Of a stretch of 64,000 bases of DNA, positions 4,979-57,881 are shown one piece after another (position 1 is the first letter of the stretch; each line of letters begins with the position of its first letter). The translations under genes were made by a program, and so were the position numbers. The notes below the pieces were generated by a model. The model was not told where the DNA came from. It worked only from the letters and a program-made list of their open reading frames with translations, and ran no database searches. The stretch comes from Streptomyces sp. NBC_01689 (GTDB taxonomy: Bacteria; Actinomycetota; Actinomycetes; Streptomycetales; Streptomycetaceae), in assembly GCF_036250675.1 (NCBI RefSeq), contig NZ_CP109592.1, positions 682,001 to 746,000 on the forward strand. Reading direction: 5' to 3'.

Positions 4979-5626
4979 TCAGCCGAAATCGGGACCGCCG
5001 GTGCGCGTGCGCTTCAGCTCGAAGAAGTTCGGCGAGGACGCGACGGCGAGCACACCGTCCCACAGCCGGGCGGCCGCCTCGCCCTTGGGAGTCGGATTCA
5101 CCACGGGCCCGAAGAAGGCCACGGGCGCGCTTCCCTCGCCCTCACCCGGAACGGAGATGACGGGGCTACCGACGTCCTCGCCGACCAGGGTGATCCCCCG
5201 GCGGTGGGACGCCCGCAGTTCCTCGTCGTACCGGTCCGTGTCACCGGCGTCGGCCAGGTCCACGGGGAGCCCGGTCTCCCGGAGGGCGGCTTCCAGGGTG
5301 GCCCGGTCCTTGGGCCGCTGCTCCAGGTGGTACCGGGTGCCGAGGGCCGTGTAGAGAGGTGCGACCGTCTCCGGGCCGTGCAGAAGGCGTGCCGCGGTCA
5401 GGACACGTACCGGCGCCCACGCCTGCCCCATCAGGACCCGTATGCGCTCGGGCAGTTCGTCCAGCCTGTTCTCGTTCAGGACCGACAGGCTCATGACGTG
5501 CCAGGACACCTCGACGGGCCGGTGCTCCCGGACCTCGAGCAACCAGCGGGAGGTCAGCCAGGTCCAGGGACACACGGGGTCGATCCAGATGTCGACGGAT
5601 GTCGCGGGGGAGGTCGATGTATGCAC
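4979..5626 (-). CDS. DsbA-family (thioredoxin-fold) protein with CPWT motif
   Basis: This is a 215-residue thioredoxin-fold protein like the mycothiol-dependent nitroreductase group (Rv2466c type). The active-site segment is WIDPVCPWTW, so Cys19 is present but the resolving position holds Thr22: CPWT instead of CPWC. It should work by a monothiol, probably mycothiol-dependent, mechanism in the cytosol, as no signal peptide is visible. Its promoter region carries an operator almost identical to the ones before the wrbA-like gene, which places it in the redox regulon proposed here. The physiological substrate is unknown. Confidence 0.85.
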   Translation of the reverse strand: MHTSTSPATSVDIWIDPVCPWTWLTSRWLLEVREHRPVEVSWHVMSLSVLNENRLDELPERIRVLMGQAWAPVRVLTAARLLHGPETVAPLYTALGTRYHLEQRPKDRATLEAALRETGLPVDLADAGDTDRYDEELRASHRRGITLVGEDVGSPVISVPGEGEGSAPVAFFGPVVNPTPKGEAAARLWDGVLAVASSPNFFELKRTRTGGPDFG

Positions 5627-6132
5627 GGGAGACTCCGATTGACGCTGTGTGGGTTGCGCGGCCCGACGGGCCCGGTCGGCGGATGCCGGATCGGCGGGTC
5701 GGGGAATCCGCCTCCGTCCGGCAGGGGTCCCGTGCCCCGCCTCACGGCAACCCGCCGTCCGTTGCAGGACGGGGCGTGGGACCCGGGGAAAGAAATATAA
5801 CCGACCGGTCGACTATCAAGATAGGCCGCTCGATGGGCACGTGTCAAAGATCGGCCCGTCCGGTCGTCGTACCCGTTCGCGGGTGTCCTCCGTGCGACGG
5901 AACCGCTCTCGCCCTGATGCGCCGGGAGCCACGAGACACGGGCCCGTACACGCCGGACGACGGCCCGACGCACGCCGGGCCGCCCGCGTGACGCCGCGCG
6001 ACGGTCGGCCCAGACCTCTCACCGGTCCAGACTCCTCACCGGTCCGGAACCCGGGTCGCTTCCCGCCGGCCCCCGGGCCGGGTCGGCGGGACCGTATTCC
6101 TCACCGTGGCGGCGAACCGGCTCGGCGTCCGC
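5627..6132. other. intergenic region with operator A
   Basis: No supported gene is present. The stretch contains the promoter and operator of the DsbA-like gene near 5800. A weaker half-site resemblance (CCGGTCGTCG) lies near 5869-5878. Confidence 0.5.
5797..5816 (-). promoter_or_regulatory. TetR-type operator A (before DsbA-like gene)
   Basis: The halves are ATAACCGACC and GGTCGACTAT. The site differs from operator C1 at 13882 in a single base out of 20. A minus-strand -10 (TATATT, 5794-5799) immediately follows it, so the palindrome fills the promoter spacer. Confidence 0.75.
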
Positions 6133-6828
6133 TCATCCGAGGATCTCCAGCAGCCGGGTCCCGAGGACCGCGGCCGAGTGCGGATTCTGCCCGGTGACGA
6201 GGTTGCGGTCCTCGACCATGTACGGCTCCCAGATCGGACCCCGGCTGAAGTCCACCCCGACCTTCTCCTTCAGTTCGGTCTCCAACAGCCACGTCGCCAT
6301 GGGCGCCAGCCCCACGGCCTCCTCCTCCTCGTTGGTGAAGCCCGTGACCCGGTAGCCCCTGAACGGTGACTCACCGTGGATCCTCGTGGCCAGCATCGAA
6401 GCCGGGGCGTGGCACACGATCGCCAGCGGCTTCCCCGAGGCGAGCTGTGCCGTGAGCAACCGGCCGACGTCGGCGTCGAACGCCAGGTCCGCCATCGGCC
6501 CGTGGCCGCCGGGGAGATACACGGCGTCGTAGTCCTCCAGGCGCACGTCCGACAGCTTGAGCGGACGCCGCATCACCTCGGCGGAACGGATGATGTTCTC
6601 CAGTTCCAGCGCGCCGTCCTCGCCTCCGGCCATGGAGGGACGCAGGCTCATCATGTCGACGTTCGGGACGACGCCGCCGGGAGTCGCGACCACCACGGTG
6701 TGACCGGCCTCCGTGACCTGCTTGTAGGGCATCGCGAACTCCTCCGCCCAATAGCCCGTCGCGTGCCTGGTGCCGTCCTTGAGGACCCAGTAGGTGGCCC
6801 CCGTCACGATGAAAAGTACGTTCGCCAT
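6133..6828 (-). CDS. DJ-1/PfpI family protein (Hsp31-like)
   Basis: This is a 231-residue protein of the type 1 glutamine amidotransferase-like fold. The nucleophile elbow AIVCHAPAS has Cys139 followed by His140, and a conserved acidic residue lies in YWAEEF (Glu29/Glu30). Larger DJ-1 members of this size include Hsp31-type glyoxalase III and chaperone proteins that act on methylglyoxal. The assignment to that activity is inference. It lies between operators A and B of the redox regulon but has a different palindrome of its own upstream (6860-6876). Confidence 0.88.
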   Translation of the reverse strand: MANVLFIVTGATYWVLKDGTRHATGYWAEEFAMPYKQVTEAGHTVVVATPGGVVPNVDMMSLRPSMAGGEDGALELENIIRSAEVMRRPLKLSDVRLEDYDAVYLPGGHGPMADLAFDADVGRLLTAQLASGKPLAIVCHAPASMLATRIHGESPFRGYRVTGFTNEEEEAVGLAPMATWLLETELKEKVGVDFSRGPIWEPYMVEDRNLVTGQNPHSAAVLGTRLLEILG

Positions 6829-6859
6829 GTCGCTCCGTCTCCTTCACTGCCGCGTGGCC

Positions 6860-6876
6860 CGGTCGGCCACCGACCG
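6860..6876 (-). promoter_or_regulatory. palindrome upstream of the DJ-1 gene
   Basis: CGGTCGG and CCGACCG are separated by CCA, 31 bases before the ATG. It is operator-like, but its spacing differs from the A-D operator family. Confidence 0.4.
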
Positions 6877-7485
6877 AGGTGGACACCGGCTCGAACGAAC
6901 CCGCCGGCTCCTCACCGCGCCCTCCAGACAGGGCGGCGTCCCGACGACCACGAGCGGACCGGAAGCCTCGATGTCCCGCGCCGCGGCGAGCAGTTCGGCC
7001 ACCGGCGTGGAGAGGACGAGGTCGCTGCCTCGGGAGGGAAGCCACGGATCGCCGGCAGACACGTCAAGGGCCGTGGCAGGTGCTGAGATCGCCAAGGTCT
7101 CGGGGGATCGTCGGACACATCAGCTCCGGACAGCGCCGAAGGGTGACTCCGGGCTCGCCGGAACGGGGGCGCATCATGGGGTCCCGACTCCTTCCGGAGG
7201 AGATCGGTCCCGCGCGGGGTCCTCGGCACTCGACGGTTTCCACGGCACGTGGCTTCGTGATGCGCAGCGGCGCCTCCTCGTCCCCCATGGCCATGTCGGG
7301 CGTGCGGAACGCCTTCCAGCGTAGAGAGCACTCCGGCCGGGCGCATGCGGACCAGGGAGCGGGCGCTCCGGCGACGTCCGCGAGCGGGTGCGCGGCTCGG
7401 GGCCGTACGGTCGGCGTGAGAAGGGTCTGTGGCCGTCCCGGCACCGTGGGCGCAGTACGTCGCGAGACTCCCCCGGTCGATGCGG

Positions 7486-7527
7486 GTGGGGACCCGGCGC
7501 GACTCCGTTGACGAGCCGGGTCCCCAC
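7486..7527. terminator. strong hairpin in intergenic DNA
   Basis: A perfect 13-bp stem (GTGGGGACCCGGC with its complement) closes a 16-base loop. It could end transcripts from the MFS gene on the minus strand, though it lies about 270 bases past that gene. Confidence 0.45.
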
Positions 7528-7798
7528 TCCTGTGCTCCCCGACCGGCCGAGAATCCCGGGCGGGAGCCGACGGGCTTCTTATGGAGCGAGCCGCGTGAGC
7601 GACCGTCGATCCTGCCCCACCACACCGTGCCACCGATCTCCTCGGTGGGGAGCCCGTCACGTCCATCACGTTCTTCGCCTCCCCGAAGGTTCACACCTTC
7701 GCGCCGGACGTATCTCATGGTGCGTGACGCATGTGTGGCGCCGCCGGGTCTCGCGGACGCCGGGACGCCCCCTTGAGGTGCCCGATCACGGTGCGGCG

Positions 7799-9103
7799 CT
7801 AGGCCCCGGCCGGATCGCGGTCGGCCTGGTTCCCGGCGCCGAGCGGGGTGTCCGGTGCCGGAAGGGTGTGCGGGAATCCGAAGCGGAGTACGAAGGCCGT
7901 CACCGCGGAAGCCATCACGACGGCCGCCGCCAGGAGCAGGGCCTGGTGGTAGCCGTGACGCAGGAGAGGAGTGGCCGCGAGCGGTCCGAGGATCTGGCCG
8001 ACCGAGTATCCGGCGGTCAGCAGGGCCACGGCGCGCGGGAACCGCAGATGCGTGCCCGTCGCCAGGGCCAGCGTGCTCACGCCGATGAAGGTGGAGCCGA
8101 ACAGCACCGCGGAGATCAGAGCGGCCGCGACTCCACCGACCAGCGCGGGCAGCGCGATGCCCACGGCCTGGACGGCGAGCGCGGCCAGCAGCAGGTCCGG
8201 CCGTGACCAACGGCGCCCGAGCCCCGCCCACATCGCGGACGAGGGAATGGCCGCCAGGCCCACGACCACCCACGCGCCGCTGCCGATCCACCCCGGGGAC
8301 GTCTGGTTGATCGCCGCCACCAGGAACGTGCCCGCGATGATGTAGCCGATCCCCTCCAGCGTGTAGGACGCGAAGAGGGCGCTGAACCACCGATGGGTGC
8401 GTGGGCCTCCGGCACGCACTCCCGGAGCACCGGCCGCGGGGACCTTCCGCGCGGCCGGCTCCGGACGCAGCCCCCAGGCCGCGCAGGTCAGAGCCGCCGC
8501 GAGGGCGGCGGAGGCCCACCACGCGGCCTGCCAGTCGCCGACCGAACGCAGCACCAGGACGAGCAGACCCGACAGCGCGATACCGGCTCCCACGCCCCCG
8601 AACGCCCAGCCGGGCAGATGGGACGGGTGGTCGCGCAGATGGCTGAGGAGCGAGCTCGCGGCGATCACGAAGATCATCGCGCTGAAGACTCCGGCGCCGG
8701 ACCGCAGCAGCAGCCAGACCGTGGAACTGTGGGTCAGCGGCATGCCGGCGAGGGTGGCCACCAGCGCGACCAGACAGCCCCGCAGGACGGCCGAGGAGCG
8801 CACCAGCCGCGGGACGAGGGTGCCGGCCAGCGCGCCGACCAGGTACCCCACGTAGTTGGCGGTGGCGAGGTGCGCGCCGACTCCGGCCGACAGACCCGCC
8901 TGGGCGTGCATCAACGGGAGGATCGGGGTGTAGACGAACCGTCCGACGCCCATCCCGGCGGCGAGCGCGGCGGCGGCCCGGAGGACGTGCCCCCATGGTG
9001 AGCTCCGCGCGTATTCCGCTCCCGCGAGCCGGTCCGCCCGACGCACGGTGACCGGCTCCCCGCCAGGGGGAGCCACCGACAAGATGTTTCGCCTGCTGAC
9101 CAT
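7799..9103 (-). CDS. MFS transporter, YbfB/YjiJ family
   Basis: This is a proton-coupled efflux-type permease of about 434 residues with twelve predicted membrane segments. The first is AAALAAGMGVGRFVYTPILP, and the GxGRF..PxLP pattern after the first helix is typical of YbfB/YjiJ members. The gene is divergent from the tetR gene at 9343, and operator B lies between them. This suggests export of the compound that the repressor senses. The ATG at 9103 is taken as the start; the frame stays open to 9310, and a GTG at 9046 with GGGGAG upstream is another option. Confidence 0.85.
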   Translation of the reverse strand: MVSRRNILSVAPPGGEPVTVRRADRLAGAEYARSSPWGHVLRAAAALAAGMGVGRFVYTPILPLMHAQAGLSAGVGAHLATANYVGYLVGALAGTLVPRLVRSSAVLRGCLVALVATLAGMPLTHSSTVWLLLRSGAGVFSAMIFVIAASSLLSHLRDHPSHLPGWAFGGVGAGIALSGLLVLVLRSVGDWQAAWWASAALAAALTCAAWGLRPEPAARKVPAAGAPGVRAGGPRTHRWFSALFASYTLEGIGYIIAGTFLVAAINQTSPGWIGSGAWVVVGLAAIPSSAMWAGLGRRWSRPDLLLAALAVQAVGIALPALVGGVAAALISAVLFGSTFIGVSTLALATGTHLRFPRAVALLTAGYSVGQILGPLAATPLLRHGYHQALLLAAAVVMASAVTAFVLRFGFPHTLPAPDTPLGAGNQADRDPAGA

Positions 9104-9315
9104 ACGGAAAGGCTGCGCCCGCCACCACGGCGAAATCCACGACCGGCTTCCTCCCTGCTGGGAACCTCTGCCTTCCAGCACCCCGATGCCGGGTCCGGGC
9201 CCCGGCGGCAGCGCTCTCGGAGGCGTTCGTCCTCTCGCAGGCCGGGGGTCCGGAGGCGCGGAGGTCGTGGTGTCGCCGGGCACGGTGGACCGACGAACGG
9301 ACGGCGGCACCCGGA

Positions 9316-9335
9316 CTAGACGATCGGTCGTATAC
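9316..9335. promoter_or_regulatory. TetR-type operator B in the tetR/MFS divergent promoter region
   Basis: The halves are CTAGACGATC and GGTCGTATAC. The right half overlaps the tetR -10 box TATACT (9331-9336). With the tetR ATG at 9343 this leaves almost no leader, so the site would autoregulate tetR and could also repress the MFS gene on the other strand. Confidence 0.75.
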
Positions 9336-9342
9336 TTCCGCC

Positions 9343-9960
9343 ATGGGACGGACGAGCGATGCCGAGAGCAAGATCCTTACCGCTGCTCATTCCCTCTTCG
9401 AGCAGCGGGGGTACTCGGCCCTGGGCGTCGCCGAGATCTGCAAGGCGGCGGGCGTCCCCAGGGGGAGTTTCTACTACTTCTTCGACTCCAAGGAATCCCT
9501 CGCGCTCGCCGTGATCGACCAGCACTGGGCGACCGAGCGGAGCGAGTGGGCACGGATCCTGGGCGGCGACGCCGATCCCCTGCGGCGGCTGCGGCACCTG
9601 TGCGAGGCGACGGAAGCGGAGCAGCGGGCCGGTCAGGACCACTGCGGAACGGTCCTGGGGTGCATGTTCGGCAACCTCTCCCTGGAGATGAGCAATCAGG
9701 CCGCCGCCCTCCGCGAGCGACTGCAGGAGATCTTCGAGGCCCAGGTGGACATGGTCGAGGCAGTCGTCACCGAGGCGCACGACCGTGGTGACGCGACGAC
9801 GCCCGACGCTCGCGACACGGCCCGCTCGATGGTGGCGCAGATGGAGGGTCTGGTGCTCTTCGCCAAGCTGTACAACGATCCCTCCCGGCTGAGCACACTC
9901 TGGCCGAGTTGCCGGGCACTGCTGGCCGACCCCGCCTTCCAGGAGTCCCTGGCCGCCTGA
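9343..9960 (+). CDS. TetR family repressor, NemR/LmrA-YxaF-like, proposed regulator of the thiol/quinone regulon
   Basis: This 205-residue regulator has an N-terminal TetR DNA-binding domain; the recognition region LGVAEICKAAGVPRG is at 27-41, followed by SFYYFF. The C-terminal domain has DHCGTVLGCMFGNLSLE (99-115), the pattern seen in NemR/LmrA-type repressors. Cys101 and Cys107 lie near the position of the reactive cysteine of Escherichia coli NemR, which senses electrophiles and quinones. Its own promoter carries operator B, and related sites precede three other units in this window. The mRNA looks leaderless, with TATACT ending seven bases before the ATG. Sensing chemistry is inferred, not shown. 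Confidence 0.88.
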   Translation: MGRTSDAESKILTAAHSLFEQRGYSALGVAEICKAAGVPRGSFYYFFDSKESLALAVIDQHWATERSEWARILGGDADPLRRLRHLCEATEAEQRAGQDHCGTVLGCMFGNLSLEMSNQAAALRERLQEIFEAQVDMVEAVVTEAHDRGDATTPDARDTARSMVAQMEGLVLFAKLYNDPSRLSTLWPSCRALLADPAFQESLAA

Positions 9961-10062
9961 CGCGGAGGGCACGGCGGCCGAGTGCCCGCGCGCCGCTCCG
10001 GCGACGACCCGCCCGGGACCTTACGGCGCCGGTACGGGACGCCCCGCCACGCGGCCGATCGT

Positions 10063-10908
10063 TCAGCCGGAGCGTTCGCTCAGCCGGTGGGTGTGGGCCG
10101 GGTACACGCCGAGGACGCGCACCTCGGACGAGAAGAAACGCAGTTCCTGGAGGGCGAGTTCGACGCGGGGCTCGTCCGGGTGCCCCTCGATCTCAGCGTA
10201 GAAGCCGCTCGCGTTCAGTCCGGCGCCCATCTGGTAGCTCTCGATCTTGGTGAGGTTGACGGCGCTGCTCGCGAAGCCGCCGAGCGCCTTGTACAGGGCG
10301 CTCGGGATGTTCCGTACGCAGAAGAACAGGCTGGTCATCGTCGGCCCGCCCGCGTGCGGCGGCGTCGTGCTCTCGCGCGAGAGCACGACGAACCGCGTGG
10401 TGTTGTCGGGATCGTCCTCGACCTCGGCCCGGAGCACGTCCAGGCCGAACAGGCCGGCGGCGGCCGGCGGGGCCAGAGCGGCGTGCCGCGGGTCGCCCAG
10501 TTCCGCCACCTCGCGAGCGGCTCCCGCCGTGTCGTCGCTGACCAGGGTGCGCCAGCCGCCCTCCCGCAGCAGCTTCCGGCACTGGCCCAGGGCGTGCACG
10601 TGGCTGCGTACGCACTCCACCTGGTCGAGCGTCGCACCGGGCACGGCCATCAGGTCGAAGCGGATGGGCAGGAAGTACTCGGCGACGATGAACAGGCCCG
10701 ACTCCGGCAGCAGATGGTGCACATCGGCCACGCGTCCGGCCGCGGAGTTGTCCACCGGGATCACCGCGACGTCGGCGGCCCCCAGCGTGACGGCGTCGAG
10801 AGCCTGTTCGAAGCTCGTGAAGGGCAGCTCTTCGCCCGCCGGATACAGCGTCCGGGAGACGGTCGAGGAGTTCGAGCCGGGTTCGCCCTGATAAGCGACG
10901 GTCGTCAC
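10063..10908 (-). CDS. pheA: prephenate dehydratase
   Basis: This 281-residue enzyme converts prephenate to phenylpyruvate in phenylalanine synthesis. The catalytic domain begins VAYQGEPGSNS and contains the TRF motif at 171-173. A C-terminal ACT regulatory domain follows from about 195 with LTKIESYQ. The GTG at 10908 gives the normal family N-terminus; sequence upstream in the frame is not homologous. The ESYQ form of the phenylalanine-binding motif is more usual in proteobacterial enzymes than the ESRP of most actinobacterial PheA proteins, so this may be an additional, acquired copy. It is convergent with the tetR gene. Confidence 0.92.
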   Translation of the reverse strand: MTTVAYQGEPGSNSSTVSRTLYPAGEELPFTSFEQALDAVTLGAADVAVIPVDNSAAGRVADVHHLLPESGLFIVAEYFLPIRFDLMAVPGATLDQVECVRSHVHALGQCRKLLREGGWRTLVSDDTAGAAREVAELGDPRHAALAPPAAAGLFGLDVLRAEVEDDPDNTTRFVVLSRESTTPPHAGGPTMTSLFFCVRNIPSALYKALGGFASSAVNLTKIESYQMGAGLNASGFYAEIEGHPDEPRVELALQELRFFSSEVRVLGVYPAHTHRLSERSG

Positions 10909-11466
10909 CGTTGTGAGCCTTTCACGTAAGGGCCTCGCTGGAGTACGGCGGGGTTCCACCGGCGAAGCGCATGCAGTGAAGTATGGCTCCGACTGCCGCG
11001 ACCGAGCACATCGTTCCCGGTCCCATGGCCGCGTCACGGTCGCGGGACCGGTGTTCCCCGCACCGGGCAGCACTCACGGCCGCGTCCGCTCCACAACGGC
11101 GAGGACGGCCCGGCCCTCGCCTCCGAGGCCCACCCTCCTCCGCCACAGGCCGGGCGCGCCCTCTGCCGCGGGCCGGATCGACCCATTCGTGGCACGCGCC
11201 CGCCCGCTCAGGCCCTCCCGCCGTCGGCCGACACACCCGTCCACAGGCGGGCGGACCGGCGAGCGCGGACGGCGAGCCGACCGCCACCACCCCCTCCCGG
11301 GCATGACGACGCCCGGCGGAGCGGCCCCTGGCTCGTCACCTGTTTGACTGGTGACGCAAGCTGTGGAACAGTCTCGCTCACCGGCTTCCCGGTCGCACGA
11401 GATACGTTTCTCGTAGCCGTGTCCGACCGACACATGTCTTCACACCCGCACGACGGAGGGGTTCTC
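10909..11466. other. intergenic region with promoter elements for the Tat hydrolase
   Basis: No gene is supported. A TTGACT box lies at 11344-11349 on the plus strand. A palindrome ACGAGA-N6-TCTCGT lies at 11397-11414, about 53 bases before the hydrolase start, and could be an operator. Confidence 0.4.
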
Positions 11467-12567
11467 ATGATCGACAGGCGTACCTTCAACAAGGCCGTCG
11501 GCATCGGCACGGGCGCGGCGGCGGTCGCGGCGGTCGGCTTGCAGAACAGCGCGACGGCGATGTCCGCACCTGGCGCCAGGGCCGGTACGTCCGCACCGAC
11601 GGTGCCCGCGGTGGTTCCGGGTACGCACACGTCCTTCGCCCGGCTCAAGCAGGTCCGCGCCGGCGTCCTGGACATCGGTTACGCGGAGGACGGCCCCGCA
11701 CACGGACCCGTCGTCATCTGCCTGCACGGCTGGCCCTACGACATCCACAGCTACGCCGATGTCGCCCCCCTCCTCGCCGCCCAGGGCTACCGCGTGATCG
11801 TCCCCTACCTCCGCGGACACGGCACGACCACGTTCCTGTCCTCCAGGACCGAGCGCAACGCCCAGCAGTCCGCCGTCGCCCTCGACATCATCGCCCTCAT
11901 GGACGCCCTCAAAATCGACAAGGCGCTCCTCGCCGGCTTCGACTGGGGCTCCCGCACCGCCGACATCATCGCCGCCCTCTGGCCCCACCGCGTCACCGGC
12001 CTCGTCTCCGTCAGCGGCTACCTCATCACCAACGTCGAGGCCCAGAAGAAGCCCTTGGCGCCCGCGGCCGAGCACACCTGGTGGTACCAGTACTACTTCG
12101 CCACCGAACGCGGCCGCCTCGCCATGCAGGACAAGACCGACCGTCACGACCTCTGCCGCCTCGTCTGGGACACCGTCTCCCCCACCTGGCACTTCGACGA
12201 CGCCACCTTCGAACGCACCGCCACCGCCTTCGACAACCCCGACTACCCCGCCATCGTCATCCACAACTACCGCTGGCGCCTGGGCCTCGCGGACGGCGAA
12301 CGCCGCTACGACCGCTACGAGAAACAACTCGCCACCCGCCCCCTCATCACCGTCCCCACCATCACCCTCGACCCCGGACGCGACCCCTTCACCGCACCCG
12401 GCGACGGCAGCACCTACCGCGACCGCTTCACCGGCCCCTACAGCCACCGCACCCTCACCGACATCGGCCACAACCTCCCCCAGGAAGCGCCGACCGCCTT
12501 CGCCCAGGCCGTCGTCGACGTCGACCACTTCGAGAGCCCGCCCAAGTCACGGGGGTCTCGTCCCTGA
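11467..12567 (+). CDS. Tat-exported alpha/beta hydrolase, epoxide-hydrolase/haloalkane-dehalogenase type
   Basis: This 366-residue protein starts MIDRRTFNKAVG, a twin-arginine signal (Arg4-Arg5) followed by a hydrophobic Ala/Gly stretch, so it should be exported folded. The oxyanion motif HGWP is at 87-90. The nucleophile elbow GFDWGSR has Asp159 instead of Ser, as in epoxide hydrolases and dehalogenases. A catalytic His is likely in DIGHNLPQEAP near the C-terminus. The substrate is unknown. The ATG at 11467 has GGAGGGG upstream. The gene ends in a hairpin that overlaps its stop codon. Confidence 0.88.
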   Translation: MIDRRTFNKAVGIGTGAAAVAAVGLQNSATAMSAPGARAGTSAPTVPAVVPGTHTSFARLKQVRAGVLDIGYAEDGPAHGPVVICLHGWPYDIHSYADVAPLLAAQGYRVIVPYLRGHGTTTFLSSRTERNAQQSAVALDIIALMDALKIDKALLAGFDWGSRTADIIAALWPHRVTGLVSVSGYLITNVEAQKKPLAPAAEHTWWYQYYFATERGRLAMQDKTDRHDLCRLVWDTVSPTWHFDDATFERTATAFDNPDYPAIVIHNYRWRLGLADGERRYDRYEKQLATRPLITVPTITLDPGRDPFTAPGDGSTYRDRFTGPYSHRTLTDIGHNLPQEAPTAFAQAVVDVDHFESPPKSRGSRP

Positions 12568-12584
12568 GGCCGCGAGACCCCCGT
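12549..12584 (+). terminator. terminator overlapping the hydrolase stop
   Basis: ACGGGGGTCTCG pairs perfectly with CGAGACCCCCGT across a 12-base loop that contains the TGA. Confidence 0.75.
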
Positions 12585-12754
12585 CGTCGTCCTCCTTCCC
12601 GGGAGAGGGTGTCATCTGCCGCCCTGTAGACGGTCACTTACGGGAGCACGGCCCCAACCTCGCCCGGGGAACCGATACTTCTCCATGTCCCTGGCGAGCG
12701 AGGGGAACCGGGGGCACCGCCGCGCCGCCTTCGCGAGATCGGCAGGCGGGTCGT

Positions 12755-13048
12755 TCAGCCGGTCCGCCCCGGATCGTTGGGGTGCGACTGCAGAGGGGTG
12801 ACCACCGCGGTCATCCAGGGCCACAGGGGAAGGCTCCCGAGGACCTCCTCACGCAGCTCCGTCTCGTCCTCGGCCCGCCAGATCCCGATGCTGCGAAGCT
12901 CGCCCACCGGACGCCAGAGCCGGAACAGCCGTCCTTGGGCGGCGAGTTCCCGAGCCCGTGCGGATTCCGCGGCACGGCGTCCGTCGACCTCCGTCTGTTC
13001 GGTGCCCTCGGGCACCGTCGTGGTGAGCTCGACCAGGTATTCCTTCAT
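12755..13048 (-). CDS. muconolactone delta-isomerase-like protein
   Basis: This is a 97-residue single-domain protein of the MIase (dimeric alpha-beta barrel) family, starting MKEYLVELTTTVPEGT. The family isomerises muconolactone, but many members outside catechol pathways have unknown roles, and no other catechol gene is here. It follows the wrbA-like gene on the same strand after 186 bases. GAGGAAGAG precedes the ATG. A very strong hairpin at 13067-13108 sits 18 bases before the start, so the gene is either uncoupled from wrbA or controlled by that structure. Confidence 0.8.
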   Translation of the reverse strand: MKEYLVELTTTVPEGTEQTEVDGRRAAESARARELAAQGRLFRLWRPVGELRSIGIWRAEDETELREEVLGSLPLWPWMTAVVTPLQSHPNDPGRTG

Positions 13049-13066
13049 GATCTCTTCCTCTCCGGC

Positions 13067-13108
13067 CTGCCCGGTGGACGACGGCCTCGGCCGTCGTCCA
13101 CCGGGCAG
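13067..13108 (-). terminator. 20-bp perfect hairpin between wrbA-like and MIase-like genes
   Basis: CTGCCCGGTGGACGACGGCC pairs completely with its complement across a two-base loop. It would terminate the wrbA transcript, but it ends only 18 bases before the next start codon. Confidence 0.75.
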
Positions 13109-13234
13109 CACCCGTATCGGTCCGACACCGCCAAAACCCGCGCTCTCACGGCTGGGTGTTCATGTCGGGCGCTGCGCGCCCTCACCCCGCCGCGGGCCGG
13201 ACGGGACCCGGCCGGCGATCGGCGCCGCGAACCG

Positions 13235-13849
13235 TCAGGCGGCGGCCTTGAGCGCACCGGCGATCCTGACGGCCCGCTCGACCTGGATCCGGGCGGCGGT
13301 ACGCGTGATGTCGTCGACGGGGTTGGCACCCTGGCCGTCCACGTGCGAGGTGCCGTAGGGGTTGCCGTCCACGAACTTGTTCGGGTCGGTGAAACCGGGA
13401 GTGATGGTGATTCCGCCGAAGTGGTGGACCGAGGCGTACAGGGCGAGGAGGGTCGCCTCCTGACCGGCGTGCGCCGTGGCGGTGGAGACGAAGCCGCTGT
13501 AGACCTTGTCCACGAGCTTGCCCTCGGCCCACAGGCCGCCCAGGGTGTCGATGAACTGCTTGAGCTGCGCGGAGACGTTGCCGAAGCGGGTCGGCGTGCC
13601 GAAGAGCACGGCGTCGGCCCACTCCACGTCGGCGGGGGTGGCCTCGGGGATGCCCGCGGTCGCGGCGTGGTTGGCGGCCCACGCGGGGTTGGAGTCGATG
13701 GCCGACTGCGGAGCCAGCTCGGCGACCCTGAGGAGGCGGACTTCGGCGCCGGCCTTCAGCCCCGCGTCGTGAAGCTCCTTGGCGATCTCTGCGATCGTGC
13801 CGGTGGACGAGTAGTAGATGACGGCGAGCTTGACGGGAGTCGTGGTCAT
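13235..13849 (-). CDS. wrbA: NAD(P)H:quinone oxidoreductase, WrbA type (flavodoxin-like)
   Basis: This 204-residue FMN protein belongs to the WrbA family, which reduces quinones by two electrons and so avoids semiquinone radicals. The phosphate-binding loop YYSSTGTIAEIA is at 12-23, and the GTPTRFGNV segment (about 84-92) and a C-terminal family-typical DDI-containing helix are present. Two operators of the proposed TetR regulon (C1 and C2) lie in its promoter, with C2 exactly between the -35 and -10 boxes. This makes it the most clearly controlled target in the set. Confidence 0.9.
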   Translation of the reverse strand: MTTTPVKLAVIYYSSTGTIAEIAKELHDAGLKAGAEVRLLRVAELAPQSAIDSNPAWAANHAATAGIPEATPADVEWADAVLFGTPTRFGNVSAQLKQFIDTLGGLWAEGKLVDKVYSGFVSTATAHAGQEATLLALYASVHHFGGITITPGFTDPNKFVDGNPYGTSHVDGQGANPVDDITRTAARIQVERAVRIAGALKAAA

Positions 13850-13881
13850 GGAAGTGCTCCGTTCAATGGGGGTTGCGATCG

Positions 13882-13901
13882 ATAACCGACCGGTCGTCTA
13901 T
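13882..13901 (-). promoter_or_regulatory. TetR-type operator C1 (wrbA promoter, at +1)
   Basis: The halves are ATAACCGACC and GGTCGTCTAT. It lies directly downstream of the predicted transcription start, 33 bases before the wrbA ATG. Confidence 0.8.
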
Positions 13902-13909
13902 CGATGTTC

Positions 13910-13938
13910 AAGCTAGACGACCGGTCTACTTCCGTCAA
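13910..13938 (-). promoter_or_regulatory. wrbA promoter with operator C2 inside
   Basis: On the minus strand TTGACG (13938-13933) and TAGCTT (13915-13910) are 17 bases apart. Operator C2 (13913-13932, halves CTAGACGACC and GGTCTACTTC) covers the spacer. Confidence 0.78.
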
Positions 13939-14300
13939 ACCCTCACTCCCGACAGGCAGTCGGAACGATGTCCTGTCGCACCGGACCGACCGGCCGGGCC
14001 CTGGAGACGTCGGAATACGTGTGAGCCTCCCGCCGGGACGGGTGAGAGCACGCGAGGACCCTCGGCGGTCGGTCGGCCCGGCTGCGTCCTGATCAGCGGG
14101 GACGCGCGGCCACCGCGCACCCCCCCATCACGTCACACGGGACCGCACCTCAGAAACCCCCTCCCCCCTGCCACCCCTCGCATCCACCCGGTACCCCTGT
14201 CATCAGCCGCATGACCGATCCGTCGTGACGCTGAACCACCCACCGGCGCACCGGCCTGGGTAGCATGCCCAGCGTCATTGATGAGAGGGAGTGAACGGTT

Positions 14301-14897
14301 GTGACCAGCCAGTCAGCCGCCACGCTCCGATCGCGGTACGTGGAGCAGGCCGCGTCGGACCTGGAGGAAAATCGCCGTCGGCAGAAGGAACTGAGCGAGA
14401 AAATCGCGATGTTGAAGCAGGAGGAGGCCCTGCTGATCGACATCATGACCCTCGCCGAGCGGTACCGGGGCTTGTCCGATCCGTCACACCTGCCCGAACA
14501 GGCACACGCCGAACCCGCGCTCGGCCCGGAGCGGGGGGGCACCTCGTCCTCGTCCGGAGTGTCACCCTCGCGGGTGACGTCGCCCACCTCCCGGTCCCCA
14601 CGTGCCGGAAGGCCGACAGCGGGCACGAAGGGAAGTTCGCGTGCGCCCCTGCTCGGAGAGGTCCTGATGGACCTGCTGCGGGCGGGCGACGAACCTCGCC
14701 TCGCCAAGGAGCTGCGGGACGAGCTCCTGGAGAAGCACCCGGACAGGACGCCGACGCCTCAGGTCGTCCGCAACACCCTGGAGTCCCTGGTCGCCAAGGG
14801 ACGTGTCCAGCGTCATCGCCAGCAGCGGTCGGTGATGTACACCGTGCGCCGGCCCGTCGTTCCGGACCCCTCCACAGCCGGGACGGACACCGACTGA
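14301..14897 (+). CDS. winged-helix-like regulatory protein with N-terminal coiled coil
   Basis: This 198-residue protein of unknown function starts with GTG. Residues about 10-55 are charged and heptad-like (LEENRRRQKELSEKIAML), predicting a coiled coil. A Ser/Pro-rich linker (about 75-115) follows. The C-terminal 80 residues (LLGEVLMDLL...VRNTLESLVAKGRVQRHRQQ) read as a winged helix with the wing at RSVMYTV. It is probably a dimeric DNA-binding protein. I do not recognise a named family, and its target is unknown. Confidence 0.75.
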   Translation: MTSQSAATLRSRYVEQAASDLEENRRRQKELSEKIAMLKQEEALLIDIMTLAERYRGLSDPSHLPEQAHAEPALGPERGGTSSSSGVSPSRVTSPTSRSPRAGRPTAGTKGSSRAPLLGEVLMDLLRAGDEPRLAKELRDELLEKHPDRTPTPQVVRNTLESLVAKGRVQRHRQQRSVMYTVRRPVVPDPSTAGTDTD

Positions 14898-14973
14898 CCT
14901 CCGTCGTCGCGACCCACCGGGGTGGCATCGGGGCCGGACCGGACCTGCGCGGACGGGCAGCCGGTGGTCCGGG

Positions 14974-15783
14974 TCACCGCGCAGGACCGCACACCTCCGG
15001 GTCGAGGACGAACTCACGGACCGCGTGCGCGAATCCTTCGGGCTCCTGGACGTGTCCCATGCATCCGTCGTGTTCGAGGACGGACAGCCGCGCTCCGGGG
15101 ATCACCTCGTGAAGTCCCCCTCCTCGCGCGGGCCCGCGAACAGGGTCGTCCCGGCCCGAGATCACCAGCGTCCGGACATCCACCCGCGCCAGGTCCGCCC
15201 GGTCCACCCCGGTGGTCCGGCACAGGTTCTCGTCCAGCCCCGAGATGTACGCGGCTCGGTGGTGGACGCCCGCCGTGGCCGACGACCACCCGCCGCCGTC
15301 GACGTCGCTGTCACCGGCCGGCGGGGCCGGCGCCCGGTCCGCCCGCCCGGAGGACGGCTCGGCGTCGTACAGAATCACCCCGGCCAGGCTCTCCGAGCGG
15401 TGCAGCGCGTGATGGGCCGCGACGAGGGCGCCGTGCGCGTGGCCGAGCAGGTACACGCGGGAGCACCGCAAACGGTTGATCAGCACCTGGAGAAAGTGGC
15501 TGTAGCGGTCCCGGGTGTACCCGTGCGGATGAGAGGGGAGGCACCCCGACTCCCCCGTTCCGATGGGTTCGACGTAGACCATGGTCAGGTGCGTCTCCAG
15601 GGCCGGCACGCGGAGGTAGTCCCAGAAGAGTCCCGGGCCCCCGGGGTGCGCCACACAGACCGGGCCGCTGCCGTGCACGTGGTACCGCTGGACGATCCCT
15701 CCGAGCCGGAAGGAGTGTGTGCCCGGCGAGAGCGGCTCGTCATCGGGTGGGCGGGCGACCGGGCAGACGGTCGGGGTGTCCAT
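14974..15783 (-). CDS. alpha/beta-hydrolase-fold protein lacking the nucleophile serine
   Basis: This 269-residue protein looks like a proline iminopeptidase-type hydrolase: HPGGPG at 46-51 forms the oxyanion loop, ISGRDDPV carries the acid and GCMGHVQEP the base histidine. The nucleophile elbow reads LLGHAHGAL, so the expected Ser is Ala116. I checked the codon (GCG) in the nucleotide sequence. Unless another residue substitutes, it is catalytically dead and may bind a ligand instead. GGAGGT precedes the ATG at 15783; upstream in-frame codons are not family-like. Confidence 0.82.
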   Translation of the reverse strand: MDTPTVCPVARPPDDEPLSPGTHSFRLGGIVQRYHVHGSGPVCVAHPGGPGLFWDYLRVPALETHLTMVYVEPIGTGESGCLPSHPHGYTRDRYSHFLQVLINRLRCSRVYLLGHAHGALVAAHHALHRSESLAGVILYDAEPSSGRADRAPAPPAGDSDVDGGGWSSATAGVHHRAAYISGLDENLCRTTGVDRADLARVDVRTLVISGRDDPVRGPARGGGLHEVIPGARLSVLEHDGCMGHVQEPEGFAHAVREFVLDPEVCGPAR

Positions 15784-16064
15784 GGGACCTCCGTGGCGTG
15801 TGGTCCTGCTTCCGACATCAACACGGAGTTGCGGGGGCCCCAAGGTTCTGCGCCGGCCTGTGACATGCGTCATGGACCGCCGGAGGCAGTGCGGAACCCG
15901 ACCGGGCGGAGCCTGTCCGTTCGTTCCGGGCGAGCTTCTCCTGACGCTGTTCCACCCGCCGCGCCGAGAACGGCCCGGCTCATATGACTGCCCTTGCCTC
16001 CGGCGCGAGACTCCCCCTCACACGTGTGAGGCCTGCCCCCAGAGTGTTTCCCGGGGTGCGGTCG

Positions 16065-16709
16065 TCATGCCGCCGGGCGGTCCGCCCAGGCCTGCTCGAG
16101 TGCCCGGGTGAACGTCTCGGCGGACTGGCCACCGCTCACTCCGTAGCGCCTGTCCAGCACGAAGAAGGGCACGCCGCCGGCACCCAGTTCGGCCGCCAGT
16201 CGCTCGTCGGCCCGCACCTCCTCGGCGAACGCCCGCGGGTCGTCGAGCACTTCGCGTGCCTCCGCCTCGTCCAGCCCGGCCTCGACGGCGATGGCCAGCT
16301 GGGTCTCCCGGTCGTAGACCGAGCGCTCGTCCGCGAAGTTCACCCGGAAGGCGAGGTCCATCAACTCGGCCTGTCGGCCACGCGCCTTGGCGAACTGGAG
16401 CAGCCGATGCACGTCGAAGGTGTTCCCGAAGACGCGTCCTCCGATGCGGAAGTCCAGCCCCACCGACCTCGCCATGGCCGCGGCCTGCTCCTCCCTCGCG
16501 ACCTGCTGGTCACGGGTGCGTCCGTACTGCGCGGCGACGGCATCGATGATCGGTACGGATCCCTGCTCCGCCTGCGGATTGAGTTCGTACGACCGGTGCA
16601 CCACCTCCACCTGGTCGCGATGCGCGAAGGCGGCCAGGCCACGGTCGAAGCCCGCCCTCCCCACGTAGCACCACGGGCAGGCGATGTCCGTCCATATTTC
16701 GACACGCAT
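16065..16709 (-). CDS. DsbA-family oxidoreductase, FrnE-like
   Basis: This 214-residue cytosolic thioredoxin-fold protein has the intact active site ACPWCYVG (Cys11/Cys14). The FrnE family (named from the frenolicin cluster) acts as disulfide isomerase or polyketide-associated oxidoreductase; members often respond to oxidative stress. The ATG at 16709 (MRVEIWTDIA) matches family N-termini. Operator D lies about 93 bases upstream in the promoter spacer, which links it to the TetR regulon with the CPWT protein and WrbA. Confidence 0.9.
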   Translation of the reverse strand: MRVEIWTDIACPWCYVGRAGFDRGLAAFAHRDQVEVVHRSYELNPQAEQGSVPIIDAVAAQYGRTRDQQVAREEQAAAMARSVGLDFRIGGRVFGNTFDVHRLLQFAKARGRQAELMDLAFRVNFADERSVYDRETQLAIAVEAGLDEAEAREVLDDPRAFAEEVRADERLAAELGAGGVPFFVLDRRYGVSGGQSAETFTRALEQAWADRPAA

Positions 16710-17028
16710 GTAGAGAATCTCCCTGTCGGGCTTGCTCGGGGGCCGGTCCATGAACACCTGCGACCACTGCGATCGGCACGGACCGGATGGGTCCCGTAAA
16801 TATAGACGACCGGACGTCTACTAGCGAGCGCCCGTGGATGTGATGTGTTTCCCGGCACGACCGGCCCGGTCGGTCACCTCCGGAACGCCGGGGGTCCCGG
16901 CGCTGTCCCGAGCTCCCGGCTCCCTCTGACCGCGGAGCGGCCGGGAGCGACGCCGTCGACACGTGTGACGGTACGACCGTCACCGGCCCAGGGCGTCCCA
17001 CGGTCGGCGCGGAGGCCGAGATCCGGCC
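16710..17028. other. intergenic region with operator D
   Basis: It contains the frnE-like promoter and operator. The remainder (16830-17028) has no supported gene and lies beyond the end of the lysR remnant. Confidence 0.45.
16799..16821 (-). promoter_or_regulatory. TetR-type operator D with -10 box (frnE-like gene)
   Basis: The halves are ATAGACGACC and GGACGTCTAC (16802-16821). The minus-strand -10 TATATT is at 16804-16799, so the operator fills the spacer. The -35 (TCGCTA) is weak. Confidence 0.75.
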
Positions 17029-57579: not shown

Positions 57580-57881
57580 GACACTTCATCTTCTTCCTGC
57601 GCCCAGCCCGGTCGGGCCCGGCTCTCATACCGTCGTCCTTCGGATACCCGACATGTCTCGGATACCTGAGCCGGGTGCCCGTCCCCGGCGGCGAGCAAAC
57701 GCGCATGAGACGCGGCTCTCGGCCTCCGGGCACAGAACCGGCAATGGGAACATCATCCGCCAGAGCGGCACGGCGCGCATGTCGTGGTGTGCGACCGGTC
57801 GCACACCACCGGTGCGCGGGAGGCCGCGAAGGTGCCTACTCCGGGTCTGGAAGATCCACCACAGCGAAATCGGAGGACTCC

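Follow-up and report, generated by a model that had tools for sequence, protein, structure and literature searches.

A 64,000-nt stretch of the Streptomyces sp. NBC_01689 genome (the window; positions 682,001–746,000 of the 9.9-Mb contig NZ_CP109592.1, in a whole genome of 9.96 Mb) carries five closely similar palindromes in front of the gene for a TetR-family protein, here called TetR1, and of three genes for putative redox enzymes. It raises the question of whether these palindromes are the operators of a single regulon, which repressor reads them, and which signal it answers. The sequence comparisons strongly support both the regulon and its assignment to the TetR protein, and sequence together with predicted structure places TetR1 as a NemR-like repressor. 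We consider it probable that TetR1 acts on the five palindromes in the manner of NemR and AltR, and would release detoxification genes upon electrophile or thiol-oxidant stress. No account of this regulon was found in a literature search of open-licence papers. The operators, the promoters (assigned as matches to an HrdB-like consensus only) and the genes concerned are as follows; scores are those of an operator matrix built from other species, described below.

4979..5626, − strand: Rv2466c-like DsbA-fold protein (CPWT), putative mycothiol-dependent nitroreductase (PF22234, E = 3e-74)
5797..5816, no strand: operator A, 1 nt downstream of the −10 element of the Rv2466c-like gene; score 25.4
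5818..5847, − strand: HrdB-like promoter TTGACA-18-TATCTT of the Rv2466c-like gene, consensus match
7799..9046, − strand: MFS_4 (YbfB-type) transporter (PF06779, E = 6e-65), divergent from tetR1
9316..9335, no strand: operator T, overlapping the tetR1 −10 element and ending 7 nt before the ATG; score 30.0
9343..9960, + strand: TetR1, NemR-like repressor (by sequence) with C33, C107 and K175
13235..13849, − strand: WrbA-type NAD(P)H:quinone oxidoreductase (NF002999 at cut-off, TIGR01755 above cut-off)
13882..13901, no strand: operator C1, 8 nt downstream of the wrbA −10 element; score 26.5
13910..13938, − strand: HrdB-like promoter TTGACG-17-TAGCTT of wrbA, consensus match
13913..13932, no strand: operator C2, filling the wrbA −35/−10 spacer; score 19.3, the weakest of the five
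16065..16757, − strand: FrnE-type DsbA-family oxidoreductase (CPWC; PF01323, E = 3e-30)
16802..16821, no strand: operator F, in the frnE −35/−10 spacer and overlapping the −10 element; score 26.1

All five 20-mers were confirmed at the positions given by an initial annotation of the window: ATAACCGACCGGTCGACTAT at 5797, CTAGACGATCGGTCGTATAC at 9316, ATAACCGACCGGTCGTCTAT at 13882, CTAGACGACCGGTCTACTTC at 13913 and ATAGACGACCGGACGTCTAC at 16802. The same is true of the single-base difference over 20 between operators A and C1, and of the absence of the motif from the genes in between, where no matrix site scores 10 or more. The operator type is TAG-N2-GACCGGTC-N2-CTA. With up to three mismatches the consensus 20-mer matches three places in the window, where 0.00 are expected, and four in the whole genome, where reversed-pattern controls give none. 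The shorter pattern TANNCGAYCGGTCGNNTA, allowed at most one mismatch, has eight matches genome-wide: all but one of the five window sites, and four outside the window at 1,981,400, 2,740,491, 2,743,740 and 6,457,960. At two mismatches the forward and reverse counts are 27 and 28, those of the controls 12 and 9; because the controls are also numerous, this level is uninformative alone, and only places with zero or one mismatch were followed. One two-mismatch site, at 9,331,660, has a matrix score below 12 and was dropped, as was a first pattern, ATAGAC-N5-GTCTAT, which gave 4 matches against 4.11 expected and whose spacing misfits the sites.

Could such palindromes arise by chance in GC-rich DNA? 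A matrix trained on the tetR promoters of other species finds exactly the five sites in the window, with a next-best score of 11.9. Simulated DNA with matching dinucleotide content (3 Mb) yields one site that reaches 18 and none that reaches 20, and column-permuted matrices give a mean of 0.13 matches at a score of at least 15 in the window (largest 2; 200 runs). Isolated matches may have the look of accidents. One of them, at 6,457,960 (score 25.4), whose target would be a membrane-protein gene near proline-biosynthesis genes, is treated as chance because nothing in the corresponding loci of 18 relatives scores 14 or above (in one, 9.8 is reached). Against chance as an explanation of the five sites stand their rates in the window, genome, simulated and permuted tests and their conservation in other species, and we regard it as negligibly probable. 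A perfect palindrome of another sequence, GTGTGCGACCGGTCGCACAC at 57787–57806, has a matrix score of only 11.9 and is perhaps the operator of another regulator.

To assess the conservation, 80 loci with relatives of TetR1 were taken from named genomes; being related to one another, they do not count as independent events. The 34 closest homologues (47–76% identity) are all actinobacterial. The best match to the typed consensus within 120 bp before tetR was recorded for each of these 34, and in 34/34 the palindrome stands directly before the tetR start with one to six mismatches in 20, at a distance of 7–9 nt in 29 loci and 17–18 nt in five. The symmetric matrix was built from those 34 sites alone and includes no window site. 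Scanning 33 loci with it (L036, which overlaps L035 on the same contig, is omitted, as are L255–L271, which were found by the motif and serve as examples only) gave 40 sites at tetR and 32 further sites in 24 loci. Relative to a predicted gene start, all 32 fall within the range from 45 nt inside to 250 nt upstream, and 50 permuted matrices over the same 600 kb give a mean of 0.7 matches (largest 5). Over a wider set of loci 110 of 112 sites are within 300 bp upstream of a start, compared with 27% of random positions; this set includes regions picked by target gene as well as the training sites, and L049 and L286, which look like one contig, are counted twice. Both exceptions are at the tetR of L051, a gene misplaced by the simple gene finder from which starts were taken except where annotation is cited.

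The palindrome and the repressor also occur together. The TetR is present in 32 of 199 congeneric genomes (E ≤ 1e-40) and at least one perfect TANNCGACCGGTCGNNTA in 18, of which 17 have the TetR (Fisher p = 5.6e-15, in related genomes whose events are not independent). The matrix, the 34 loci and the co-occurrence support a single operator family linked to a TetR_C_13/NemR-like repressor. A different reader of the palindrome, such as a LysR or MarR neighbour, or control by SigR with an incidental TetR link, is very improbable. LysR genes do adjoin many of the sites before short-chain dehydrogenase/reductase (SDR) genes, and Rv2466c is named in a SigH regulon paper (PMC4803200). On the other side, the site accompanies tetR in each of the 34 closest loci, only one of 167 TetR-less genomes has a perfect motif, and the SigR-type consensus GGAAY-N18/19-GTT is absent from the 330 bp upstream of all four operator-preceded window genes.

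More distant relatives carry related palindromes. In L081 (Miltoncostaea, actinobacterial and not among the 34) the palindrome GTTGACCGGTCGGTCAAG stands 8 nt before the start. Many of the 46 homologues outside the 34 (30–38% identity, mostly Verrucomicrobia) have GTTGAC-N6-GTCAAC-like palindromes near the start, which suggests that the operator family is old; the start after the palindrome in these distant homologues (L055–L100) often reads ATGGG. A truncated TetR copy (L281:13681-14049; G111:C36:82758-83126) retains a strong operator (29.1) and adjoins a WrbA–FrnE gene pair with two further sites.

How do the operators sit with respect to the promoters? The initial annotation placed every site in a core promoter. 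Those at 9316, 13913 and 16802 overlap an HrdB-like −10 element, that at 5797 starts 1 nt from one, and that at 13882 is 8 nt downstream of one. Operator A is about 170 nt from the start of the Rv2466c-like gene, and the centres of C1 and C2 are 31 bp apart. The frnE −10 element is TATATT, with a −35 of poor match (3/6). That of tetR1, TATACT at 9331–9336, has a poor −35 and ends 6 nt before the ATG, so near that the message is probably leaderless. The single site in the tetR1–MFS gap is 7 nt from the tetR1 start but 270 bp from that predicted for the MFS gene, whose control is therefore uncertain.

What kind of repressor is TetR1, and what might it sense? Among the 15 window proteins covered by a Pfam/NCBIfam profile scan, TetR1 has a TetR_N and a TetR_C_13-type domain, and its predicted fold is NemR-like; PF16925 (TetR_C_13) gives E = 6.5e-15, and PF21993 (TetR_C_13_2) is weaker, though above cut-off. 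C33 and C107 are present in all 63 aligned TetR rows (58 of them different; L230 and L243 of the range L226–L254 are missing) and K175 in 62. C107 and K175 align with chain positions 108 and 177 of structure 4yze, which would correspond to C106 and K175 of NemR if the 201-aa chain has two extra N-terminal residues. An operator in the gene's own core promoter, likewise a NemR-like feature, is present at the sequence level both in the window and in each of the 34 closest loci. It is likely that TetR1 senses electrophiles.

Alternatively, the same operators and repressor could answer a specific non-covalent ligand, for example an aromatic or phenolic compound, a polyketide intermediate or an antibiotic, with the regulon serving catabolism or self-protection rather than general electrophile stress. 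Ligand binding is common among TetR proteins, TetR1 has a weak match to the ScbR family, below cut-off, and the loci repeatedly contain muconolactone isomerase-like and SnoaL-like genes as well as genes for SDRs, flavin reductases and hydrolases (a prephenate dehydratase recurs in one). The invariance of the two cysteines, the near-invariance of the lysine and the presence of DsbA-fold and Rv2466c-type enzymes behind the operators speak against such a ligand, as does the lack of a complete catabolic pathway recognisable among the window proteins scanned, and we judge this alternative unlikely.

Under the NemR-like explanation, dimers of TetR1 would occupy the core promoters of tetR1, wrbA (at two sites), frnE and the Rv2466c-like gene in unstressed cells. 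Electrophiles or thiol oxidants (quinones, aldehydes, and compounds of thiosulfinate or hypochlorite type) would modify Cys107, probably with participation of Lys175, and the modified repressor would leave the DNA. The cell would then make enzymes predicted from their families to be two-electron quinone, carbonyl and nitro reductases and thiol-disulfide enzymes. The host presumably uses mycothiol. The quinone and thiol theme first proposed for the targets is borne out by family matches, since the genes preceded by operators encode reductases and thiol oxidoreductases; for the CPWT protein the upstream operator stands, and its family is corrected from generic DsbA-like to Rv2466c (PF22234).

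Is the regulon confined to the window, and is TetR1 its only regulator? Within the window TetR1 is, as noted initially, the one regulator with its own copy of the operator, but the genome encodes a second, TetR2 (G000:C1:2740517-2741101; L131:10518-11135), 2 Mb from the window and 67% identical to TetR1, with an operator ending 7 nt before its start (score 30.1). About 3 kb beyond TetR2 a further site precedes an SDR gene, which is followed by a SnoaL-like gene. The site at 1,981,400 (score 15.7) lies about 50 bp before an aldo-keto reductase (AKR) gene; it was retained because the copy in genome G084 (85% identical) has a strong site (24.7) at the same position, the two more distant copies in G040 lacking one (two of four places). 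In G084 the AKR gene stands between muconolactone isomerase-like and DJ-1-like genes. By these sequence matches the regulon is wider than the window, with more regulators and targets than first described, and tetR2, the SDR gene and the AKR gene would be held by the same operators, TetR2 probably sharing sites with TetR1.

TetR1 and TetR2 fall into separate groups in a quick tree (14 rows with support 95; 11 rows with support 92, drawn open), and over the stretch 39–47 they differ by one residue (R40/K40), so that they likely share operators. TetR2, or both proteins with split duties, could then control the window sites, TetR1 acting mainly on itself and perhaps on the MFS gene. The equally good operator of TetR2 and its nearly identical recognition-helix stretch fit this arrangement, as do the wrbA operators, which are split about evenly between genomes with and without a TetR1-clade protein, and SDR operators are found mostly in loci of clades other than that of TetR1. 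Every genome seen with an operator before frnE or an Rv2466c-like gene, by contrast, has a TetR1-clade protein (five and three genomes, respectively). Such an arrangement, compatible with much of the explanation by TetR1, is possible but doubtful. TetR-like genes of equal score also occur as mirrored pairs near the ends of the 9.9-Mb contig (214199/325198 versus 9694998/9584336), which suggests terminal inverted repeats of more than 300 kb.

Which genes carry the operator elsewhere? In the 33 loci the commonest further target is an SDR gene (20 loci), followed by WrbA (three loci); an alcohol dehydrogenase, FrnE and an extra site before tetR are found in one locus each. Another locus carries one site between DJ-1-like and unclassified genes and a second before an unclassified gene. 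Homologues of three window targets were sought in 199 genomes, and 30 loci of each, one per genome, were examined. With the window included, a promoter site is present in 7 of 30 WrbA loci (77–100% identity), in 4 of 30 FrnE loci (one via an upstream wrbA) and in 3 of 30 Rv2466c-like loci (81% identity in G061 and 77% in G027). The frnE genes of G027, G061 and L038 have a promoter site, and in G111 a site precedes a wrbA-frnE pair. The more distant copies among these loci have no site. At the cut-offs used the families occur in 68 (WrbA), 197 (Rv2466c) and 170 (FrnE) of the 199 genomes, so resident copies are common. Among the examined loci the operator is a mark of the close homologues, whereas the distant, common copies are without it. 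This pattern makes the gain and keeping of operators traceable across genes. G020 has a weak site (14.7), not counted, at a distance of over 750 bp from the start of its Rv2466c-like gene. The 527 upstream bases available for its FrnE gene hold no site; immediately upstream the contig ends in part of a WrbA-like frame, so the promoter may be cut off.

The set is also found on a plasmid of Streptomyces tendae 139 (NZ_CP043960.1, 408,250 bp; contig 2 of genome G027), which carries two TetRs, two WrbAs, an Rv2466c-like gene, FrnE and an SDR. Every one of these genes has a site, and their order differs from that in the window. Among 444 plasmid records with a TetR match five are at 60–80% identity; two of these records are 5.7 and 11.9 Mb long, and the latter is surely chromosome-sized. 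The regulon looks like one that travels. Somewhat short of an even chance, in our estimate, is the broader proposal of a transferable electrophile-defence regulon of actinobacteria, in which two paralogous NemR-like cysteine-switch repressors would share one operator before varied detoxification genes, located at several positions in the chromosome as well as on a large plasmid, copies moving between species together with their operator while resident enzyme copies remain outside control. Three distant plasmid relatives (29–35% identity), from Duffyella, Rahnella and Thiothrix, were not recognised as alt clusters, the clusters of the AltR system; in Duffyella the TetR lies beside alkene reductase, SDR and alcohol dehydrogenase genes.

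Several observations weigh against the electrophile-responsive regulon as proposed. A cysteine and a lysine at the same positions are also present in 3bru and PA2196, and C107 and K175 may be structural; the cysteines of the TetR stress regulator CssR are described as not redox-active in a passage of the report on it (PMC8176726). No target of NemA type (old yellow enzyme, OYE) or GloA type was found among the window proteins scanned, nor directly behind those other sites of the genome that were looked at. Some close homologues lack a site, namely three WrbA copies (76–77%), the 81% Rv2466c copy in G020 and the two AKR copies in G040, and the Rv2466c-like targets rest on three genomes and the AKR targets on two. 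No perfect motif is found in 15 of the 32 TetR-bearing genomes, which is expected, as the pattern is strict and misfits tetR sites such as CGATCGGTCG in the window, and 9 of the 33 loci have no site except that of tetR itself. Finally, neighbours of muconolactone isomerase-like, SnoaL-like and prephenate dehydratase type would also be consistent with a role in catabolism or biosynthesis.

The nearest analogues of the window system are NemR and the AltR/allicin-tolerance clusters. TetR1 is 25% identical to NemR of the Escherichia coli nemRA-gloA operon, and its regulon differs in being scattered over several places with two paralogous regulators; as nemA and gloA are not among the controlled genes, we use the term NemR-like rather than NemR. 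The portion of PMC3739934 available did not contain the NemR operator sequence. AltR of Pantoea ananatis is described, in the portion of its report available, as a TetR related to NemR that regulates its own gene, in which C100 is essential and an inverted repeat spans the −10 (PMC13178969), and the corresponding part of the report on PfAR-1 of Pseudomonas has sdr, tetR, dsbA/frnE-like and kefF genes together, with copies on three genomic islands (PMC7119367). Partners of comparable kind, namely an SDR, a TetR, FrnE and a flavin quinone reductase, occur in the present genome, FrnE and WrbA behind window operators and the SDR at the second chromosomal place. The alt operator, CAATCTAC-N6-GTAGATTG, is by eye not matched by the window operators; osmC, trx, ahpD, oye and kefC of the alt clusters are missing among the window proteins scanned, while the Rv2466c-like and MFS_4 genes belong to the window system. 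With its operators and several genes different, the system is not assigned to either group. AltR is induced by thiosulfinates and not by N-ethylmaleimide or diamide, so inducer ranges can be narrow.

Other systems are less similar. LmrA/YxaF of Bacillus respond to flavonoids and are of the TetR_C_13_2 type, whereas TetR1, which also matches PF21993 above cut-off, better fits PF16925. DitR-mfsBC of Stenotrophomonas maltophilia comprises, in the part of the source available, a TetR repressor with 15.9% identity to NemR, MFS genes, several boxes in the core promoter and two cysteines needed for the diamide response; its Box I is unlike the window operator and one operon is described (PMC9342713). 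Thiol stress in Streptomyces coelicolor is, according to a passage of PMC4921905, governed by SigR. The SigR and SigH regulons share the theme of thiol-oxidative stress but work through sigma-factor promoters, none of which was found at the four window genes. If the dispersed NemR-like regulon is real, it would add a second, cysteine-based layer of thiol-stress control besides SigR. Many streptomycetes make quinones and other electrophiles, so the regulon may also bear on self-protection.

Three further genes of the window belong to its surroundings:

6133..6828, − strand: DJ-1/PfpI (HchA-like) protein, no operator here
11467..12567, + strand: alpha/beta hydrolase with a leader resembling a twin-arginine (TAT) signal by eye, no operator here
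12755..13111, − strand: muconolactone isomerase-like protein, encoded downstream of wrbA in the same orientation

All three recur near the regulon elsewhere, the DJ-1/PfpI protein in 2 of 15 locus groups (86–91% identity), the hydrolase in 4 of 15 (80–82% identity) and the muconolactone isomerase-like protein in 10 of 15. A prephenate dehydratase gene at 10063–10908 stands amid the stress genes and recurs in one locus; in G061 (L276) an 83%-identical copy follows an operator-preceded SDR gene on the same strand.

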